Shown: positions 49,836 through 63,747 of the stretch, one piece after another | Layout: each line of letters opens with the position of its first letter | Position numbering within the stretch: position 1 is the stretch's first letter | Assembly: GCF_025716945.1 (NCBI RefSeq) | Contig: NZ_JAOVZT010000005.1 | Span: forward strand, 186,001 to 250,000 | Reading direction: 5' to 3' | Origin: Geodermatophilus sp. YIM 151500 | Lineage (GTDB): Bacteria > Actinomycetota > Actinomycetes > Mycobacteriales > Geodermatophilaceae | Length of the DNA stretch: 64,000 nt | Notes under the pieces: model-generated | The model's input: only the letters and a program-made list of their open reading frames with translations | What the model was told of the DNA's origin: nothing | The model's database searches: none | Position numbers and translations under genes: made by a program

Positions 49836-51248
49836 TCACAGCGGGATGTTGCCGTGCGCGCCGCGGCCGGCGGGGGCCGCGGTCAGCGCCTCCACGAGCC
49901 GGCGCCTGGTCCGCCGCGGCTCGACCACCTCGTCCACGACGCCGATCTGCAGGGCGCGGTTCACCCCGCCCGCGATCCGCTCGTGCTCCTCGGCGAGTCG
50001 GGCGTGCAGCGCCTCGCGCTCCCCGGGCGGGGCGGCGGCCAGCTTCTTGCGGTGCAGGATGCCGACGGCGGCCTTCGCGCCCATGACCGCCACCTCGGCG
50101 CCCGGCCAGGCGAAGACCGTCGTGGCGCCCAGCGCCCGGGCGTTCATCGCGATGTAGGCCCCGCCGTACGCCTTGCGGGTCACCAGCGTCACCCGCGGCA
50201 CGACCGCCTCGCCGAAGGCGTGCAGCAGCTTGGCGCCGCGTCGGACGACGCCGTCCCACTCCTGGCCGACGCCGGGCAGGTAGCCCGGGACGTCGACCAG
50301 CACCACCAGCGGCACGCCGAACGCGTCGCACATCCGCACGAACCGGGCGGCCTTCTCGGCCGACGCGGAGTCCAGGCACCCGCCCAGCCGCAGCGGGTTG
50401 TTGGCGATCACCCCGACCGTGCGCCCGGCCAGCCGGCCCAGCGTGGTCACGACGTTCGGCGCCCACCGGGGGTGCAGCTCCAGGACGGGCCCGTCGAGCA
50501 CGCCGGCGACGAGCGGCCGAACGTCGTAGGCGCGGTTGGTTTGCTCGGGCAGCAGCGCGCGCAGTTCGACGTCCGGCTCGTCCCGGACCGACGCGAACTT
50601 GCCCTGGGCCGCGAGCAGGTCGACGGCCTGACGACCGGTGGCCAGCGCGGCGTCCTCCGAGTCGGTGACGACGTGCACCACGCCGCTGCGCCGGCCGTGC
50701 GTGTCGGGTCCGCCGAGGCTCTCCATGTCGACGTCCTCGCCGGTGACCGAGCGGACGACGTCCGGACCGGTCACGAACACCCGCCCGGCCGGGCCCATGA
50801 TCACAAGGTCGGTGAGCGCGGGGCCGTACGCCGCGCCGCCGGCGGCCGGGCCGAGGACGACCGAAACCTGCGGGATGCGACCAGAGGCGCGCACCATCGC
50901 GGCGAACACCTCGCCGACGGCGTGCAGCGCGGTCACGCCCTCGGCGAGCCGGGCACCGCCGGAGTGCCAGATGCCGACGACGGGCAGCCGTTCACGCAGC
51001 GCGGTGTCGATGGCGTCGACCACGTGCCGGCAGCCGTCGACCCCCATCGCGCCGCCCATCACGGTCGCGTCGGTGCAGTACGCGATCGCGGGGGTGCCGC
51101 CGACCGTGCCCCGCGCGGCGTGCACGCCGGAGGTGTCGCGGGGCACGAGCGCCTGCACCGAGCCCGGGTCGAAGAAGCGCTGCAGGCGGTCCTCCGGGTC
51201 GCGCGGGTCGGACACGGGCAGGCTCGGCGCGGTCTGGACGGCGGTCAC
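49836..51248 (-). CDS. accD6: Acyl-CoA carboxylase carboxyltransferase subunit AccD6
   Basis: 470 residues, crotonase-fold carboxyltransferase. Motifs: VMGGAMGVDGCRHVV, GIWHSGGARLAEGV (N-terminal oxyanion site), GPAAGGAAYGPALTDLVIMG, and ARKAYGGAYIAMNARALGA-type VTRKAYGGAYIAMNARALGA. It transfers the carboxyl from a biotinylated alpha subunit to acetyl- or propionyl-CoA. Position at the end of the fabD-fabH-acpP-fabF operon parallels mycobacterial accD6, so malonyl-CoA supply is the likely role. The alpha subunit is elsewhere. Confidence 0.92.
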   Translation of the reverse strand: MTAVQTAPSLPVSDPRDPEDRLQRFFDPGSVQALVPRDTSGVHAARGTVGGTPAIAYCTDATVMGGAMGVDGCRHVVDAIDTALRERLPVVGIWHSGGARLAEGVTALHAVGEVFAAMVRASGRIPQVSVVLGPAAGGAAYGPALTDLVIMGPAGRVFVTGPDVVRSVTGEDVDMESLGGPDTHGRRSGVVHVVTDSEDAALATGRQAVDLLAAQGKFASVRDEPDVELRALLPEQTNRAYDVRPLVAGVLDGPVLELHPRWAPNVVTTLGRLAGRTVGVIANNPLRLGGCLDSASAEKAARFVRMCDAFGVPLVVLVDVPGYLPGVGQEWDGVVRRGAKLLHAFGEAVVPRVTLVTRKAYGGAYIAMNARALGATTVFAWPGAEVAVMGAKAAVGILHRKKLAAAPPGEREALHARLAEEHERIAGGVNRALQIGVVDEVVEPRRTRRRLVEALTAAPAGRGAHGNIPL

Positions 51249-51407: not shown

Positions 51408-52649
51408 TCAGGTGGTCGTGAACACCAGCGCGATGTTGTGGCCGCCGAAGCCGAACGAGTCGTTGACCGCGGCGGAGAAGGAGGCCGTGCGGGGCCCGTG
51501 CCGCACGATGTCCAGCGCCTGGACGGCGGCGTCGTCGTCCGGGTCGTCGAGGTTGGCCGTGGCCGGTACGACCTGGTCGCGCAGCGCGAGCACGGTGAAG
51601 ATCGACTCCAGCGCACCGGCGGCGCCGAGCAGGTGGCCGGTCTGGCTCTTGGTGGCCGTCACCAGCACGTGCTCTCCGATGGCCGACCGGATGGCTGCGG
51701 CCTCGGCGGTGTCGCCGACCGGGGTCGAGGTGGCGTGCGCGTTCACGTGCCCGACGTCGGACGGCGACAGGCCGGCGTCGCGCAGCGCGGCGCCGATCGC
51801 CCGCCCGGCGCCCTCGCCCTCCGGGTGCGGGGCGACCAGGTCGTAGCCGTCGGCCGTCGCGCCGGCCCCCGCCAGCCGGGCGTGGATCGTGGCGCCGCGG
51901 GCCCGGGCGGACCCGGCCCGCTCCAGCACCAGCGCACCGGCGCCCTCGCCGAGCACGAAGCCGTCGCGGGCCTTGTCGAACGGTCGCGACGCACGCTCCG
52001 GCTCGTCGTTGCGGGTCGACATCGCCCGCATGGCGGCGAACCCGGCCATCGGCAGCGGGTGCACGCACGCCTCCGCGCCGCCGACGAGGACGACGTCGGC
52101 CCGGTCGAAGCGCAGCAGGTCCAGGCCCCAGCGGATCGCCTCGGCGCCCGAGGCGCAGGCGCTGACCGGGGCGTGCACCCCGCCCTTCGCGCCGATCGCC
52201 AGCCCGACCGCGGCGGCGGGCCCGTTGGGCATGAGCATCGGGATGGTGAACGGGGAGACCCGCTTGGGGCCCTTCTCCTCCAGGACGTCGTCCTGGCCGA
52301 GCAGGGTCAGCGCCCCGCCGATGCCGGTGCCGAAGACGACGGCGACCCGCTCGGGCGCGGCGCCGGCATCCGCGGCGCCGGAGGACTCCCACGCCTCCTG
52401 CGCGGCGACGACCGCGACCTGCTGGCTGCGGTCGAGCCGGCGGGCCTTGACCCGGTCCAGCCGGCCGACCGGGTCGTCGGTCAGCCGGGCGACGAGCTGG
52501 GCCGGGAACTCCTTGACCCAGTCGTCGGTGATCCGGCTGACCCCCGACCGCCCGGCCAGCAGGGCCTCCCACGTGCTGGCGACGTCCCCTCCGAGCGGGG
52601 TGGTGGCACCGAGGCCGGTGACGACGACGTCGGTCGCTGTGCTGCTCAT
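51408..52649 (-). CDS. fabF: Beta-ketoacyl-ACP synthase II (FabF/KasA type)
   Basis: 413 residues, thiolase fold. Nucleophile Cys165 in VSACASGAEAI; His residues in NAHATSTPVGD and TKSQTGHLLGAAG complete the Cys-His-His triad; the Lys precedes the second His. Elongates acyl-ACP with malonyl-ACP. Single copy here, whereas mycobacteria have kasA and kasB. Lies 145 bases after acpP, an unusually long gap occupied by a hairpin. Confidence 0.95.
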   Translation of the reverse strand: MSSTATDVVVTGLGATTPLGGDVASTWEALLAGRSGVSRITDDWVKEFPAQLVARLTDDPVGRLDRVKARRLDRSQQVAVVAAQEAWESSGAADAGAAPERVAVVFGTGIGGALTLLGQDDVLEEKGPKRVSPFTIPMLMPNGPAAAVGLAIGAKGGVHAPVSACASGAEAIRWGLDLLRFDRADVVLVGGAEACVHPLPMAGFAAMRAMSTRNDEPERASRPFDKARDGFVLGEGAGALVLERAGSARARGATIHARLAGAGATADGYDLVAPHPEGEGAGRAIGAALRDAGLSPSDVGHVNAHATSTPVGDTAEAAAIRSAIGEHVLVTATKSQTGHLLGAAGALESIFTVLALRDQVVPATANLDDPDDDAAVQALDIVRHGPRTASFSAAVNDSFGFGGHNIALVFTTT

Positions 52650-52794: not shown

Positions 52795-53034
52795 TTACTG
52801 GTTCTTCTCGATGTAGTTGATCGCGTCCCCGACGGTCTTGATGTTGCCCAGTTCGTCGTCGGGGATGGCGACGCCGAACTTGTCCTCCACGGCCGTGGCG
52901 ATCTCGACCATCGACAGCGAGTCGACGTCGAGGTCCTCGGTGAAGGACTTCTCGGGGGTGGCGTCGGCCGGCGCCACGCCGGCGACCTCCTCCAGGATCT
53001 CGGCGAGACCGGACTGGATGTCCTCGCGGCTCAC
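52795..53034 (-). CDS. acpP: Acyl carrier protein
   Basis: 79 residues, acidic. The phosphopantetheine serine is Ser39 in DVDSLSMVE, the standard ACP motif. Between fabH and fabF, as in other actinobacterial fab operons. Holds growing acyl chains for FabD, FabH and FabF. Slightly shorter than mycobacterial AcpM, which has a C-terminal extension. Confidence 0.96.
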   Translation of the reverse strand: MSREDIQSGLAEILEEVAGVAPADATPEKSFTEDLDVDSLSMVEIATAVEDKFGVAIPDDELGNIKTVGDAINYIEKNQ

Positions 53035-53188: not shown

Positions 53189-54157
53189 TCAGGGCAGGAC
53201 GACGACCTGCCCGGCGAAGGTCAGGCCCGCGCCGTAGCCGAGCAGCAGGGCGACGTCGCCGCTCTTGGCCTCACCGCTCTCCAGCAGCGCCGAGAGCGCG
53301 AGCGGCACCGAGGCCGACGAGGTGTTGCCGGAGCGGACGATGTCGCGGGCGATGACCGCACGCTCGGGCAGCCCCAGCCGCTTGGCCATCATCTCGATGA
53401 TCCGCAGGTTGGCCTGGTGCGGCGCGAAGACGTCGATGTCGTCGGGGCCGACGCCGGCCCGGCGCATCGCCTCCACGAGGGTGTCGGTGAGCCGGGTGGT
53501 CGCCCAGCGGTAGACCGCCTGGCCGGCCATGCTCATGTGCTGCTCGCCGTCGGGGATGGCGATCGCGGTGTGCAGGTCGCCGTCGCTGCCCCACACGGCC
53601 GGCCCGACCTGCGGGGTGTCGGAGGCGGTCAGCACGGCCGCACCCGCCCCGTCGGCGAAGATCACCGCGGTCGCCCGGTCGTCGAGGTCGGTGTACTGGG
53701 TGAGCTTCTCCCCGCCGATGACCAGCGCGTTGCGGGCGGTGCCCGCGCGGATGGCGTCGGCGGCCGCGCTCAGCGCGTAGCACCAGCCGGCGCAGCCCGC
53801 GTTGAGATCGAACGCGCCGGGCCGCAGCGCGCCGAGCTGGTGCGCCACGCGCGGGGCGAGGCCGGGGATCGCCGTGGGCGGGCTGGTGGTGGCCAGCAGC
53901 ACCAGGTCCATCTCGGCGGCGTCCAGTCCGCTGGCGGCCAGCGCCTTGCCGCCGGCCGCGACGCTCATCTCGACCAGCGTCTCGTCGTCGTCGGCCCAGC
54001 GGCGCTCGGCGATGCCGACGCGGCTCTGGATCCACTCGTCGTTGGTGTCCATCCGCTCGGCGAGCTCGGCGTTGGTCACCCGCCGCCGGGGCCGGTAGCT
54101 GCCGAAGCCGAGGATCCGCGCGCCGGGGGCGCCGGTGGTGAGCTGCAGGGCGGTCAT
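53189..54157 (-). CDS. fabH: Beta-ketoacyl-ACP synthase III
   Basis: 322 residues, thiolase fold. Catalytic Cys122 (NAGCAGW), His247 (FAPHQANLRI) and Asn278 (SGNTSSAS) are all present. It condenses an acyl-CoA starter with malonyl-ACP. In branched-chain-rich actinobacteria it accepts isobutyryl- or isovaleryl-CoA. Between fabD (41-base gap) and acpP. Confidence 0.95.
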   Translation of the reverse strand: MTALQLTTGAPGARILGFGSYRPRRRVTNAELAERMDTNDEWIQSRVGIAERRWADDDETLVEMSVAAGGKALAASGLDAAEMDLVLLATTSPPTAIPGLAPRVAHQLGALRPGAFDLNAGCAGWCYALSAAADAIRAGTARNALVIGGEKLTQYTDLDDRATAVIFADGAGAAVLTASDTPQVGPAVWGSDGDLHTAIAIPDGEQHMSMAGQAVYRWATTRLTDTLVEAMRRAGVGPDDIDVFAPHQANLRIIEMMAKRLGLPERAVIARDIVRSGNTSSASVPLALSALLESGEAKSGDVALLLGYGAGLTFAGQVVVLP

Positions 54158-54197: not shown

Positions 54198-55400
54198 TCA
54201 CGACGACGTCCCGGGGTAGAGGCGGGCGATCGGGTCGCCGGCGTCGACGAGGTCGCCCTCGTGCACCAACCACTCGGCGAGGACGCCGTCGTACCCGGCC
54301 GAGACGTTGACCTCGTCCCGCCGGCTGCGGACGCGGCCCAGCGGGGTGCCGGCCGGCAGGTGCGACCCTTCCGGGACGTCGGCCGGGCTGACCGTGCCGC
54401 GCACCGGGGACACGACGACCCGCCAGTCGGGCTGGTGCTGGGCCTCGGCGCGGCCGCGCTCGGCGTCGATCAGCTCGCGGGCGCGGTCGAGATCGGCCGG
54501 GCGGGCCAGCGCGAGCAGCTCGACGTCGGCCCCCTTCCACTCGCGCTTGGCCAGGCCCACCAGCGCGCCGGCCGGGGGCAGCTCGATGACCGCGGAGACG
54601 CCGAGCTCGCGCATCGTCGCCAGGCACGCGTCGAAGCGGACCGGGCTGGTCACCTGGCTGACCAGGCGGGCGAGCACCTCGGCGCCGGAGTCGACCGCGG
54701 CGCCGTCGGCGTTGGACAGCAGCAGCCGGCTCGGGTCGGCGGGGCGCAGCCCGCTGATCAGCCCCTCCAGCTCCTCGCGGGCCGGCTGCATGTAGCCGGT
54801 GTGGAAGGCGCCGGCCACCGGCAGGGGCATGATCCGCGCCTTCGCCGGCGGCTCGGCCTTGAGCGCGGCCAGGCCCTCGAGCGGGCCGGCGGCCACCACC
54901 TGGCCGCCACCGTTCGTGTTCGCCGGCACCAGGCCGTGCTTGTCGAGCACGGCGAGCACCTCGTCGGGGTCGCCGCCGAGGACGGCGGACATGCCGGTCG
55001 GCGTCCGGTCGCACGCGGCGGCCATCGCCCGGCCGCGGACGGCGGTCAGCGCGATCGCGGCCTCGACCGACAACACCCCGGCCAGCGCCGCGGCGGTCAG
55101 CTCGCCGACGCTGTGCCCGGTGATGACGACGTCGCGGCCGGCGTGCGGGGTGTGCGCGACCGGGCCGGGCAGGCCACCGAGCTCGCGGGCGACGAACAGG
55201 CTCATCGCGACGACCAGCGGCTGGGTGACCGCAGTGTCCTTGATCGCCTCGGCGTCGCCGGTGGTGCCCAACCCGAGCAGGTCGGCGTCGGCGATCGCGC
55301 CGGCCCAGCGGAAGAACGGCTCGGCGCCGGGTAGCTCCAGCCAGTCGGTCAGCATCCCGGGTTTCTGGGCACCCTGTCCGGGGGCGAGGACGGCCAGCAC
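54198..55400 (-). CDS. fabD: Malonyl-CoA:ACP transacylase with C-terminal biotinyl/lipoyl-like domain
   Basis: 400 residues against about 310 for typical FabD. The transacylase is complete: APGQGAQKPGML, Ser97 in TGHSVGELTA, His200 in VAGAFHTGYM. Residues about 328-396 form a second domain: VVVSPVRGTVSPADVPEG, then LPAGTPLGRV and GYDGVLAEWLVHEGDLVDAG with DPIARLYP. This is a biotinyl/lipoyl hammerhead pattern. The residue normally modified (K in AMKM or TDKA) is replaced by RRDEVNV, so no Lys is available and it is probably not biotinylated. The domain may bind ACP or AccD6 or organise the complex. First gene of the operon; GTG start. Confidence 0.9.
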   Translation of the reverse strand: MLAVLAPGQGAQKPGMLTDWLELPGAEPFFRWAGAIADADLLGLGTTGDAEAIKDTAVTQPLVVAMSLFVARELGGLPGPVAHTPHAGRDVVITGHSVGELTAAALAGVLSVEAAIALTAVRGRAMAAACDRTPTGMSAVLGGDPDEVLAVLDKHGLVPANTNGGGQVVAAGPLEGLAALKAEPPAKARIMPLPVAGAFHTGYMQPAREELEGLISGLRPADPSRLLLSNADGAAVDSGAEVLARLVSQVTSPVRFDACLATMRELGVSAVIELPPAGALVGLAKREWKGADVELLALARPADLDRARELIDAERGRAEAQHQPDWRVVVSPVRGTVSPADVPEGSHLPAGTPLGRVRSRRDEVNVSAGYDGVLAEWLVHEGDLVDAGDPIARLYPGTSS

Positions 55401-55582: not shown

Positions 55583-56764
55583 TCAGTGCCACAGCGAGCG
55601 GGCGGCGTCGAGGTCGGAGAGCGCCAGGGCGACCTGCAGCGTCCAGCTGCCGCGGGGGTCGGTGGCCGACAGCCCGGTGAGCTCGGTGACCCGCTTGAGC
55701 CGGTAGCGGACGGTGTTGGGGTGCACGAACAGCGCCCGCGCGGTGGCCTCCAGGTTGCCGCCGCTGCCGAGCACCGCCCGCACGGTGTCGAGCACCTCGC
55801 CGCCGGCAGCGCGCAGCGGACGGGCGACCCGGTTCTCCAGCGCGGTGCGGGCCAGCGGGTCGCCGTCCAGCGCCCGTTCGGCCAGCAGCGCGTCGGCCCG
55901 CACCGGCCGGGGTGCCGCCGGCCACGCCCGTGCCGCCCGCAACCCGGCCAGCGCCACCGCCGCCGACTCGGCGGCCCGGGACAGCCCGTCGACGACGGGT
56001 CCGGTCACCACCGGGCCGGGGCCGCACTCCTCGGCCACCCGGTCGGCCACGGCCTCGAGGTCGTCGTGCCCGCCGAGGACGACGACGAGCTGCTCGGCGT
56101 GCACGCCGACGAGCACCTCGCTGCGCATCGACCGGGCGGCCCGGCGGACGGCGGCGTGCGGGTCGTCGGCGCCGGCCGGGGTCGCGCCCACGAGCACCAG
56201 CACCGGGTTCATCGTCGTCCAGCCGAGCGCGGCGGCGCGGCCGGGCAGCTCCTCGGAGCGCTCGCCGCGCACCAGGGCGTCGACGACCAGCGCCTCCAGC
56301 CGGGCGTCCCACGCGCCGCGGTTCTCGGCGAAGCTGGCGTAGACGTGCGCCGTGGCGAAGGCGACCTCGCGGCTGAACTGGAGCACCGCCACGCGCAGCG
56401 CGTCGACGTCACCGGGCACGGCGATGGTGCCCACGTTCTCCTCCACCACCTCGACGGTCACCTTGACCAGGTCGACGGTCTGCTTGAGCGGCACGGCGCG
56501 GACCAGCTCCCGCGGGGCGGCGCCGAAGACCTCGCCGGTGAGCCGCGGCGGGTGCTGCGGATCGCGGCACCACTCCACCAGCGAGGCGATGCCGGCCTGC
56601 GCCACCAGCATCACCCACGACCGCTGGTCGGCCGGCATGGCGCGGAACCACGACAGCTGCTCGTCCATGCGCGCGACCGCGCGGGTGGCCAGGGCGCCCG
56701 AGGCGCGCTCCAGGGACCGCAGCGTGGCCGCGGTGGGCCGGCGGTCGTTCACCCGGCTGGTCAC
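55583..56764 (-). CDS. fasR: PucR-family regulator of fatty-acid synthesis (FasR)
   Basis: 393 residues. N-terminal acyl-effector-type region, a central GGDEF-like (CdaR) domain, and a C-terminal PucR helix-turn-helix: GGNLEATARALFVHPNTVRYRLKR. Orthologous position to FasR of Streptomyces and Mycobacterium, directly upstream of fabD on the same strand; there FasR activates the fab operon and senses acyl-CoA. It lacks an own divergent target other than PAP2. Likely autoregulated through the same promoter region. Confidence 0.88.
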   Translation of the reverse strand: MTSRVNDRRPTAATLRSLERASGALATRAVARMDEQLSWFRAMPADQRSWVMLVAQAGIASLVEWCRDPQHPPRLTGEVFGAAPRELVRAVPLKQTVDLVKVTVEVVEENVGTIAVPGDVDALRVAVLQFSREVAFATAHVYASFAENRGAWDARLEALVVDALVRGERSEELPGRAAALGWTTMNPVLVLVGATPAGADDPHAAVRRAARSMRSEVLVGVHAEQLVVVLGGHDDLEAVADRVAEECGPGPVVTGPVVDGLSRAAESAAVALAGLRAARAWPAAPRPVRADALLAERALDGDPLARTALENRVARPLRAAGGEVLDTVRAVLGSGGNLEATARALFVHPNTVRYRLKRVTELTGLSATDPRGSWTLQVALALSDLDAARSLWH

Positions 56765-59923: not shown

Positions 59924-60904
59924 TCACACGAGCGCGGCGACGTCGGCGGCGCAGCCCCAGGAGAGGGTGACGCCCGCGCCGCCGTGCCCGTAGCAGGCGA
60001 CCACCGGCCGCCCGTGGTGCACCACCCGCTCCAGCCGCACCGTCGGCCGGCCGGGCCGCAGGCCGACCGCGCGCGACAGAACCCGGGCGCCGCGCAGGGC
60101 CGGCACCAGCGCACAGGCGCGCCGCAGGACGGCGGCCTCGACCGCCGGATCGGGGTCGGTGCCGGTCGCACCCTCCACCGCGGTGCCGCCGCAGACGACG
60201 TCCGATCCGCGCGGCACCACGTAGGTCAGCCCGTCGGGGTGCTCCTCGTCGAGCAGCCAGCCGGTCAGCCCCGGGTCGCTGAGGCGGACCACCTGGCCCT
60301 GCACCGGCACGCAGCTGGCGTCGTCCAGCAGCGGACCCGAGCGCAGGCCCGCGGCCAGGACGACGACGTCACCGGGCACCGCGTCGAGGTCGGTGACGCG
60401 GCACCCCTCCAACTGCACCCCGGCGTCGGCGCACGCGGTCAGCAGCCAGGGCAGGTAGCGGGCCATGTCGACCACGGGAAGCGTGCAGCGGGTGCCCGCC
60501 GGGGCGCCGGGTGGCAGTTCGTCGTCCGTGGCGGGCCGGTGGCCGGGGACGCCGGGCGACCACCACAGGTCCGGCTCCGGCGTCCGGTGGACGACGGTGC
60601 CCGGCCGCAGCGCGACGCCGGTGGTGCGGTCCTCGGCCAGGAAGGTGAAGACGTCGAGCGACAGCGCGGCCCAGCGCAGCACCGCGTCGACCGGCCGGGC
60701 GCGATAGGGGAACCACAGCGCCGCGGCGACCGCCGACGTCGTCGCCGCCACCGGGTCGGCGGTGAACACCCGCACCCGGTGGCCGGCGCGGGCCAGCTCC
60801 AGCGCGCACGTCAGCCCGACGACGCCGCCGCCCACGACGGAGGCGTCGAGCGGGGTGGATTCGTACGCGTCATGCGTACGGATCCACCCCGCTCGGTCGG
60901 TCAC
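59924..60904 (-). CDS. D-amino-acid oxidase family flavoenzyme
   Basis: 326 residues if started at the GTG that overlaps the aceE stop (60904); the GTG at 60835 would remove 23 residues that lie in a hairpin. N-terminal FAD loop [17 protein letters not shown]. Conserved [15 protein letters not shown] near the end is the DAAO signature. Also [16 protein letters not shown]. Oxidises D-amino acids or glycine-type amines to keto acids with H2O2. Flanked by direct repeats, next to an antiporter remnant. Confidence 0.85.
60848..60894. terminator. 21-bp hairpin between aceE and the oxidase gene
   Basis: Arms of 21 bases (one G.T position) around the loop GTCAT; the outer 13, GAGCGGGGTGGAT and ATCCACCCCGCTC, are perfect. 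Starts 7 bases after the aceE stop (60901-60903). It overlaps the N-terminal codons of the oxidase if 60904 is its start. The left arm is also the right-hand copy of the direct repeat (60852-60872). Confidence 0.75.
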
Positions 60905-63747
60905 GCCCCGGGCTGCTGGTCCGGGTCGGTGGTGGTGTCCTCCGGCGCGGCCTGGACGTCGTCGATCCGGTACTTGTCCAGCGCCTGCCGGGCCACGTCG
61001 CGGTCGAGCTCCCCGCGGTCGGCCAGCGCGGCCAGGGTGCGGACGACGACCGACTCGGCGTCGACGTGGAAGTGCCGGCGCAGCGCCGGGCGGGTGTCGG
61101 ACAGGCCGAACCCGTCGGTGCCCAGCGTCGCCATCCCGCCGGGCACGTGCGGCGCGATCAGGTCGGGGACGGCGCGCATCCAGTCCGACACCGCCACGAC
61201 CGGGCCCTCCACCCCGTCGAGCTTCTCGGTGACGTACGGCCGGCGCGGCTCCTCGCCGGGGTTGAGCAGGTTCCACTGTTCGACCTCGTCGGCCTGCCTG
61301 CGCAGCTCGGTCCACGAGGTCACCGACCACACGTCGGCCGAGACGCCCCAGTCGTTCGCGAGCAGCTCCTGCGCGCGCAGCGCCCACGGCACCGCGACGC
61401 CCGAGGCGAGGATCTGCGCGCGCTTGCCGTTCTCCACCTGCGGGCCCGGCGCGTAGCGGTACATGCCGGCGAGCAGGCCCTGCACGTCGAGGTCCTCGGG
61501 CTCGGCGGGCTGGTTGAACGGCTCGTTGTAGACCGTCAGGTAGTAGATGACGTCGGGCGACCGGTGCCCCCCGAGCGGCGCGCCCGGGTCCTCGCCGTAC
61601 ATCCGCGCCAGCGAGTCCTTGACGACGTACCCGACCTCGTAGCCGAACGCCGGGTCGTAGGTGACGACCGCGGGGTTCGTGTGCGCGAGCAGGATCGAGT
61701 GGCCGTCCTCGTGCTGCAGGCCCTCGCCGTTGAGCGTCGTCCGCCCCGCGGTGGCGCCGAGCAGGTAGCCGCGGGCCATCTGGTCGGAGGCCGCCCAGAT
61801 CGCGTCGGCGGTGCGCTGGAACCCGAACATCGAGTAGAAGATGTAGATCGGCACCATCGCCTCGCCGTGCGTGGCGTAGGCGGACCCGGCCGCGGTGAAC
61901 GAGGCCACCGAGCCGGCCTCGTTGATGCCCTCGTGCAGGATCTGGCCGGCCTGCGACTCCTTGTAGGCCAACATCAGTTCGCGGTCGACCGAGGTGTAGC
62001 GCTGCCCCGCCGGGTTGTAGATCTTCTGCGACGGGAACAGGGAGTCCATCCCGAAGGTCCGCGCCTCGTCCGGGATGACCGGCACGAACCGCGGGCCGAG
62101 CTCCTTGTCCTTGAGCATCTCCTTGAGCAGCCGGACGAACGCCATCGTGGTGGCGACCTCCTGCTTGCCCGAGCCCTTCTTCAGCAGGTCGAAGGCCTTC
62201 TCCTCGGGCGCCTTGAGCGGCTTGGCCTCCGCCCGCCGCCGGGGCACCGCCCCGCCCAGCTGCCGGCGCCGCTCGAGCATGTACTGCATCTCGTCGGAGT
62301 CCGGGTCGGGCTTGTAATAGGGCGGCAGGGTCTTGTCCAGCGCCTCGTCGGGGATGTCGAGGTAGAGCCGGTCGCGGAAGTTGGCGAGGTCCTCGGCGGT
62401 CAGCTTCTTCATCTGGTGGGTGGAGTTGCGGCCCTCGAAGTGGCTGCCCAGCGTCCAGCCCTTGATGGTCTTGGCGAGGATGACCGTGGGCTGGCCCTTG
62501 TGCTCGACCGCGGCCTTGAAGGCCGCGTACACCTTGCGGTAGTCGTGCCCGCCGCGCGACAGGCCCCAGATGTCCTTGTCGCTCATCTTCTCGACGAGCT
62601 TCTTCGTGCGCGGGTCGCGCCCGAAGAAGTGCTCGCGGACGTAGGCGCCGTCCTCGGCCTTGTAGGTCTGGTAGTCGCCGTCGGGTGTCTGGTTCATCAG
62701 GTTGACCAGCGCGCCGTCGCGGTCGGCGGCCAGCAGCGGGTCCCACTCCCGGCCCCATATCACCTTGACGACGTTCCAGCCGGCGCCGCGGAAGAAGCTC
62801 TCCAGCTCCTGGATCACCTTGCCGTTGCCGCGGACCGGCCCGTCCAGCCGCTGCAGGTTGCAGTTGATGACGAACGTGAGGTTGTCCAGCTCCTCGCGGG
62901 CGGCCAGGCCGATGGCGCCCAGCGACTCGGGCTCGTCCATCTCGCCGTCGCCGAGGAACGCCCAGACGTGCTGGTCGGAGGTGTCCTTGATGCCGCGGGC
63001 ATGCAGGTAGCGGTTGAACCGGGCCTGGTAGATCGCGCTGATCGGCCCCAGCCCCATGGAGACGGTGGGGAACTCCCAGAACTCCGGCATCAGCCGCGGG
63101 TGCGGGTAGCTCGACAGCCCGCCGCCGGGGTGGCTGACCTCCTGCCGGAAGCCGTCCATCTGCTTCTCGGTCAGCCGGCCCTCGAGGAACGCCCGGGCGT
63201 AGATGCCGGGGGAGGCGTGCCCCTGGAACCAGATCTGGTCGCCGCCGCCGGGGTGGTCCTTGCCGCGGAAGAAGTGGTTGAACCCCACCTCGTACAACGA
63301 CGCGGACGACGCATAGGAGGAGATGTGCCCGCCGACGGCGATGCCCGGCCGCTGCGCCCGGTGCACCATGATCGCCGCGTTCCAGCGGATGTAGGCGCGG
63401 ATGCGGCGCTCGACGTGCTCGTCGCCGGGGAACCAGGGCTCCCGCTCCGGCGGGATCGTGTTGATGTAGTCGGTGCTGCGCAACCCGGGCACCCCGACCT
63501 GCTGCTCCCGGCTGCGCTGCAGCAGCCGCAGCATGAGGTAGCGCGCCCGGTCGCGACCCGCGTTGTCGACGACGGCGTCGAGCGACTCCAGCCACTCCTG
63601 CGTCTCGTCGGGGTCGATGTCGGGCAGCTGGCTGGGCAGCCCGTCGGTGATGATCGCGCGGGGGGTACCCGCGTCCCGGGCGGACTCGCCGCCCTGCTGC
63701 GGAGCGCTCATGTCCCCATGCTCTCGCGCCGGGGGGTCCCACGTCAC
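60901..63747 (-). CDS. aceE: Pyruvate dehydrogenase E1 component (homodimeric)
   Basis: 948 residues, AceE type. Thiamine diphosphate site [20 protein letters not shown] followed by [16 protein letters not shown]. Other typical stretches: [40 protein letters not shown], and [11 protein letters not shown]-type [20 protein letters not shown]. Decarboxylates pyruvate and passes the acetyl group to E2, supplying acetyl-CoA. In mycobacteria aceE is immediately next to fasR; here five genes separate them. ATG at 63747. Confidence 0.96.

Follow-up and report, generated by a model that had tools for sequence, protein, structure and literature searches.

The window analysed here is a stretch of 64,000 nucleotides from Geodermatophilus sp. 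YIM 151500, and carries a fab operon on its reverse strand. The genes run in the order PucR-type regulator, fabD, fabH, acpP, fabF and accD, so that fabD is the second gene. The fabD reading frame, with a third-position GC of 0.98, encodes a malonyl-CoA:ACP transacylase core that is extended by a C-terminal domain, referred to below as the tail. The features of the locus are as follows, in window coordinates.

55583 to 56764, reverse strand: PucR-type regulator upstream of fabD (PF13556, PF17853)
54198 to 55400, reverse strand: fused FabD-tail reading frame, GTG start, 400 residues
54471 to 55400, reverse strand: FabD (malonyl-CoA:ACP transacylase) core, residues 1-310 (PF00698; similarity to 1nm2)
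55110 to 55112, reverse strand: Ser97 in the GHSVG motif, invariant in 50 aligned fused proteins
54801 to 54803, reverse strand: His200, invariant in the same 50 proteins
54438 to 54500, reverse strand: helix 301-321 joining FabD and tail, as predicted in the AlphaFold2 model
54213 to 54425, reverse strand: predicted biotinyl-type (BCCP-like) tail, residues 326-396 (Pfam, AlphaFold2 models, fold comparison)
54318 to 54320, reverse strand: Arg361 at the biotin/lipoate lysine position (aligned with 7b9k lipoyl domains)
54270 to 54275, reverse strand: Glu376-Trp377 dipeptide of the tail (Glu in 85 of 85 tails, Trp in 82)
53189 to 54157, reverse strand: fabH, ketoacyl-ACP synthase III (PF08541, PF08545)
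52795 to 53034, reverse strand: acpP, acyl carrier protein (PF00550)
51408 to 52649, reverse strand: fabF, ketoacyl-ACP synthase II (PF00109, PF02801)
49836 to 51248, reverse strand: accD6 ortholog encoding a carboxyltransferase, final operon gene and proposed partner of the tail (PF01039, 412.7 bits; 4fb8)
50688 to 50693, reverse strand: AccD6 Arg186-Arg187, which track the tail (likelihood ratios 22.3 and 27.5)
50253 to 50255, reverse strand: AccD6 Asp332, which tracks the tail (0.98 vs 0.39; likelihood ratio 24.2)

A pyruvate dehydrogenase E1 gene (aceE, 60901-63747) lies near the operon in the window, and many genomes with and without the tail have a similar aceE neighbour. The PucR-type regulator is divergent from fabD in one genus (g38, loci L093 and L094) rather than upstream in the same orientation.

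FabD is an essential enzyme of fatty-acid synthesis, and the window protein has the acyltransferase domain with GHSxG serine and histidine that marks the family. Residues 7-289 match PF00698 with 63.4 bits against a cut-off of 32.7, and the core shares 51% identity with the S. coelicolor enzyme 1nm2 at a TM-score of 0.95 by target. Ser97 and His200, the catalytic residues of the family, are both retained throughout the fused proteins, in agreement with the complete FabD read by the initial annotation. The protein scores 166.7 bits against the NCBIfam equivalog model TIGR00128, below its cut-off of 260.9, which is a threshold of the model rather than a biological feature; despite this score TIGR00128 is its best NCBIfam family, and the nearest solved chains are actinobacterial FabDs. 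The S. coelicolor enzyme and M. tuberculosis FabD (2qc3) have the same core fold and active site, at 51-52% identity, but their matches in the window protein span residues 2-312 and 2-307, respectively, so that both lack the tail. No FabD chain among the 46 PDB sequences matched at an E-value of 1e-10 or better reaches into it.

Several lines of comparison place the tail among biotinyl-type domains. PF00364 (Biotin_lipoyl) matches residues 337-394 with 26.2 bits (cut-off 22.1) and PF13437 matches with 29.2 bits (cut-off 22.2), while PF13533 stays below its cut-off at 24.1 against 29.8. AlphaFold2 models the whole protein with a mean pLDDT of 90.7 and the tail alone with 90.6, predicting strands at residues 327-330, 335-339, 353-358, 363-367, 372-377 and 390-396. 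The best fold match of the tail model is the biotin carboxyl carrier protein (BCCP) of E. coli (1bdo, Z 12.4, rmsd 1.7 over 73 residues), followed by 2evb (Z 12.3), an M. smegmatis carboxylase (9yx1, Z 11.6) and Arabidopsis BCCP1 (9a87, Z 11.6). Biotin carrier proteins or biotin-dependent carboxylases account for 41 of the 50 fold matches listed, including the first 14, and efflux adaptors, E2 proteins and a hydrolase for the other nine. The tail is thus confidently predicted to be a biotinyl barrel of the BCCP fold, and the hammerhead domain that the initial annotation had read from its sequence pattern is recovered when the tail is modelled alone. The acetyl-CoA carboxylase carrier model PRK07051 of NCBIfam is matched at an E-value of at most 0.001 by 49 of 50 fused proteins, the match of the window protein itself being weaker (0.0098). 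By sequence alone, a profile of the tail ranks lipoyl E2 proteins of the PDB ahead of carboxylase carriers: 7b9k scores 52.8 bits over three repeats, 7q5q 46.6 and the fusion protein 6vej 45.6, with the carriers at 38.9 bits and lower. A search of viral folds gave two significant matches, both lipoyl-type and uninformative. We nevertheless rejected a lipoyl or membrane-fusion-protein origin, as the whole-domain comparison ranks biotin carriers first; the Pfam HlyD_3 and NCBIfam RND_mfp matches span just the C-terminal half.

Biotinyl domains with the same predicted fold (1bdo, 2evb and 9yx1, Z 11.6-12.4) have a lysine at the biotin site, whereas the FabD tail has none there. The RRDEV turn noted earlier is confirmed, and its second arginine, Arg361, falls at the modified position when the tail is aligned with the 7b9k lipoyl domains. 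Across 85 tails from 64 genera this position holds Arg in 58, Gln in 19, Ser in five, Gly in two and Thr in one, and lysine in none; six of the 85 have a lysine one position earlier. The tail therefore has neither the biotinylated lysine of a biotinyl carrier nor the lipoylated lysine of a 2-oxoacid dehydrogenase lipoyl domain, and its top fold matches are biotinyl. Gly335, Glu376 and Gly388 are invariant in all 85 tails and Trp377 is found in 82, which argues from the aligned sequences that the domain itself is conserved and the attachment site alone is not. The description of the tail as carrier-like but unmodifiable is thereby upheld.

When a sample of 394 genomes of the class was searched with the profile, 123 gave a match of tail strength (at least 59 bits, E-value at most 8.1e-16), a number that counts profile matches and includes a few at contig edges or in short frames. 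The fusion is thus common in the class, and the premise of the initial annotation that FabD is normally a single domain fails across it; the solved Streptomyces and mycobacterial FabDs are without the tail. Whether the tail is fused was read in 201 regions, comprising 140 from a first set of genomes, 60 added from outside the order and the window; the 60 were hand-picked to hold both states and are not a random sample. The tail is present in 85 of these regions, fused to FabD in 82 (the window included) and encoded by a separate gene in three, and occurs in 32 of the 44 families represented. It is missing from all fetched genomes of families f3, f4, f8, f15, f18, f27, f31, f32, f33, f37, f45 and f51, several of which are represented by single genomes. 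The many genomes without it speak against the alternative that it is a plain part of every actinobacterial transacylase. Genomes beyond the training set of the profile score down to an E-value of 1.3e-28 (G199), which together with the spread over 32 families indicates that the tail is not a chance occurrence. Judged from these sequences, the fusion is a class-wide feature rather than a singleton.

In a sample of 246 genomes from the phylum, which includes class members, tail-strength matches were confined to G000 and G033, and none was seen outside the class. Four weaker matches (E-values 3e-14 to 6e-13) come from frames of 521-910 residues; one of the four, L411, could be identified, as the alpha subunit of a carboxylase carrying AMKM. 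Among the best 80 of 297 confirmed stretches, the named carriers include Nocardioides, Kribbella, Jiangella, Phytoactinopolyspora, Haloactinopolyspora, Actinopolymorpha and Nanopelagicales bins.

Two of the three separate tail genes belong to the family of the window (G002 and G018, loci L073 and L074), where the tail has its own reading frame, beginning at a GTG that overlaps the stop codon of fabD, and accD is retained in the operon. We rejected a frameshift or assembly error as their source, since two genera share the overlapping GTG starts and a conserved tail, which makes genuinely split genes likelier. The separate genes argue that the tail is an independent module acting with FabD. The third (G034, locus L063) has a shortened N-terminus, no AccD6 ortholog was found in its genome, and it may be decaying.

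The carboxyltransferase gene closing the operon has M. tuberculosis AccD6 (4fb8) as the best PDB match of its product at an E-value of 3.6e-210, the next group following at 1.2e-117. AccD6 is thus encoded in the same operon as fabD, as had been proposed, with orthology called by best match rather than from a gene tree. The presence of tail and operon accD could be decided in 192 of the 201 regions; the other nine, at contig ends (seven without and two with the tail), were left out of the tree. Both are present in 74 genomes, accD alone in 61, neither in 48 and the tail alone in nine, so that accD accompanies the tail in 74 of 83 genomes that bear it against 61 of 109 that do not. Among the best 80 of the 297 confirmed stretches, accD is found at 70 of the 71 tail-bearing loci that could be decided, with eight undecided and one cut.

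On a tree of 192 tips built from the FabD core, FabH, ACP and FabF, a model in which tail and accD change dependently is strongly preferred over an independent one (likelihood ratio, LR, of 40.8 with 4 degrees of freedom; nominal p 2.9e-8). The fitted rate of tail loss is 9.8 without accD and 0.585 with it. Eighty null simulations under independence, run with a lighter optimiser, gave a mean LR of 4.2 and a maximum of 12.8. The LR is 43.8 when G033 is scored as having accD, 27.4 with one tip per genus and state (116 tips) and 33.1 without genus g27. Allowing the tail alone to depend on accD gives 34.2, and accD alone to depend on the tail 23.6 (2 degrees of freedom each). The tail therefore evolves together with the operon AccD6 gene. 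Tail and accD were probably both ancestral in the sample (root with both present, 0.88), the tail having been repeatedly lost. The 61 tail-less genomes that keep the operon accD show that the tail is dispensable for AccD6; in family f8, all 19 fetched genomes are without the tail and 18 have accD.

Relocation of accD within the genome, considered as a source of its absence from the operon, held for a single case. Among 39 genomes checked, 11 (the window included) have the AccD6 ortholog in the operon, 27 hold just paralogues of at most 50% identity, and G033 alone carries the ortholog elsewhere. No AccD6 ortholog was found in eight tail-bearing genomes.

Genus g27 offers a closer view of the association. 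Defining its operon-type accD by at least 90% identity to the operon gene of G122, and scoring the partial copy of G568 as lacking, we found among 101 genomes 36 with tail and accD, 23 with the tail alone, none with accD alone and 42 with neither. The gene thus occurs in 36 of 59 tail-bearing and none of 42 tail-less genomes (Fisher p 5e-12, which ignores relatedness), and the 23 tail-bearing genomes without it indicate that the tail can outlive its proposed partner. A relative of accD with 62-70% identity lies outside the operon in G033 and G578, which have the tail, and in G607, which does not. Pairwise divergence of the tail is 2.79 times that of the core in six g27 genomes without operon accD, against 0.89 times in four with it. 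Tail distance to the outgroup is 0.310 without accD (n=8) and 0.236 with it (n=28), while core distance is also higher without accD (0.129 vs 0.103) and the genomes are related. Such comparisons are only suggestive of relaxed constraint on the tails that lack accD. The Glu-Trp pair is kept in the tails of eight aligned g27 genomes without accD, which are therefore not simply decaying. As a separate observation, the AccD6-type gene of 62-70% identity in G033 (G033:C1:1811949-1813337) stands apart from the operon copy, and genes of this type also occur in the g27 genomes G578, G586, G541, G563, G570, G601 and G607.

We also compared alignment columns between tail-bearing and tail-less genera among genomes with the operon accD (59 and 23 genera, respectively, for AccD). 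The consensus of tail-bearing genera falls by more than 0.4 in 2.1% of AccD columns, 1.3% in the FabD core, 0.7% in FabF, 0.3% in FabH and none in ACP. When 258 preselected columns (AccD 87, FabF 59, FabD 53, FabH 43, ACP 16) were scanned with the tree taken into account, AccD 177 ranked first (LR 28.6), then AccD 187 (27.5), FabD 294 (26.3), AccD 332 (24.2) and AccD 186 (22.3), in values uncorrected for 258 tests and with AccD contributing a third of the columns; the best elsewhere were 15.9 in ACP, 14.5 in FabH and 14.2 in FabF. AccD column 177 is a serine in the window. Arg186 and Arg187 of AccD6 are found at a frequency of 0.98 in tail-bearing genera and of 0.35 and 0.39 in tail-less genera with accD, and Asp332 at 0.98 and 0.39. 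At these positions M. tuberculosis AccD6 carries KK and G, as opposed to RR and D in most AccD6 proteins of tail-bearing genera. These residues may reflect catalysis rather than docking; an equivalence of Asp332 with the specificity residue D422 of ScPccB was rejected for a mismatch in numbering. Of the two partners suggested by the initial annotation for a scaffold, AccD6 is thus favoured by its co-evolution with the tail, while ACP, with a best column of 15.9 against 22-29 in four AccD columns, is not favoured by the scan.

Two known systems bear on what the tail might do. Plant BADC proteins are likewise BCCP-like without the biotinylation motif and are tied to the plastid carboxylase that produces malonyl-CoA; they are reported to aid carboxylase assembly, and were earlier described as an inhibitor (PMC11926652). 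BADC proteins, which are related to BCCP, are free-standing and belong to plants, whereas the tail is bacterial and, in 82 of 85 cases, fused to the next enzyme, FabD, rather than being a separate subunit. AccE (epsilon), a subunit of actinobacterial acyl-CoA carboxylases, is a small non-catalytic aid to carboxylase assembly. One example, TfAcCCE, is reported to associate with the beta subunit and to increase the specificity constant by a factor of 5 to 20 (PMC7835884). AccE is a free small protein, and the likeness that we propose to the mostly FabD-fused tail is one of role. For the mycobacterial enzyme, another study detected no contact between AccD6 and AccE (PMC4347857).

Both precedents, with the undetected AccD6-AccE contact, lead us to propose that the tail docks FabD on the AccD6 carboxylase. 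The tail would be a non-biotinylated copy of a biotin carboxyl carrier domain that was joined to FabD at an early point in the class Actinomycetes. Without a biotin site it could not ferry CO2, which would leave a binding role. It may thus serve in docking or assembly, holding FabD to the AccD6-based acetyl-CoA carboxylase by touching either AccD6 or the alpha subunit that bears the biotin. Malonyl-CoA would then be made beside the enzyme that loads it onto ACP. A lineage that dropped AccD6 for other carboxyltransferases would be left with a partnerless tail, which would tend to vanish. That the tail tends to go when AccD6 is lost suggests a link between the maker and the user of malonyl-CoA. 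With binding, partner and effect on flux all inferred, we consider the explanation as a whole to have an even chance of being right, and any single effect, such as hand-over of malonyl-CoA or assembly of the carboxylase, a lesser one.

The link could instead be indirect. Co-loss of tail and accD may come from a third cause, with shifts in the making and use of malonyl-CoA driving both and the direct partner of the tail being ACP, FabH, FabF, the alpha subunit or FabD itself. The 61 tail-less genomes that keep AccD6 and the eight tail-bearing genomes without it are in line with this account. We judge it unlikely, as AccD6 supplies four of the five columns that track the tail most strongly and the best columns of ACP, FabH and FabF fall well below them; these three genes, moreover, stay in the operon in most genomes with and without the tail (in f8, FabH does not adjoin fabD). 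The PucR control showed no dependence (LR 2.9), with few losses and little power.

The co-evolution data would fit equally well if the tail were an inhibitor, a BCCP mimic competing with the true carrier at AccD6 or biotin carboxylase, through which free FabD would slow the production of malonyl-CoA. Plant BADC, too, has been put forward as an inhibitor, a model against which the same paper argues (PMC11926652). Covalent fusion to a constitutive enzyme would, in addition, be an odd throttle, and we think this reading quite improbable.

On another reading the tail would act on FabD alone, as a structural element that stabilises the enzyme or promotes its oligomerisation, and the tracking of the tail by FabD column 294, near the linker helix (LR 26.3), is in line with this. 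The full tail is, however, a separate gene in two genomes, solved FabDs do without it, and the dependence on accD would go unexplained; we give this little credence. That the tail is a functionless relic of an old fusion is scarcely credible despite its frequent loss and the greater divergence of g27 tails where accD is missing, given its retention in 32 of 44 families, the near-complete conservation of Gly335, Glu376, Gly388 and Trp377, and a divergence just 1.3 times that of the core within family f1.

A covalently attached domain whose evolution follows that of a single carboxyltransferase would offer a specific and cheap test of whether malonyl-CoA is handed over between the carboxylase and FabD during type II fatty acid synthesis. 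The tail may also explain what could replace the AccE assembly subunit for AccD6. Docking on the AccD6 carboxylase would, if true, create a metabolon that physically joins malonyl-CoA synthesis to the malonyl loading of ACP. We advance only tentatively, as somewhat less than an even prospect, the broader view that across much of the Actinomycetes this pseudo-BCCP is a built-in assembly subunit of the AccD6 carboxylase; Streptomyces- and Mycobacterium-type models would have hidden such a metabolon because their solved FabDs are without the tail. Actinomycete engineering could further draw on the tail as a natural module to increase the use of malonyl-CoA. Judged by titles and the starts of abstracts, no paper among those listed in searches of open-access text appears to describe the fusion, and database annotations of the domain may exist; pseudo-BCCP proteins are known from plants, while fusion to FabD and co-evolution with AccD6 appear to be new.

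Some individual loci merit comment. Two contigs titled as Bifidobacterium breve metagenome-assembled genomes (L303, L305) carry a tail-bearing fab operon with the spacing of a lake actinobacterial bin (L307), and their titles are probably wrong. The contig titled Streptomyces sp. SID13031 (L379) encodes a tail-bearing FabD with spacing near that of Kribbella loci, and the strain may be misnamed. The FabD of L243 (G260) is 359 residues long with no tail detected, and has either a C-terminal extension of another kind or a tail whose divergence puts it beyond the reach of the profile. In Kribbella jiaozuonensis the fabD operon occurs with identical spacing on two scaffolds (L373, L374), as a true duplication or an assembly duplicate.
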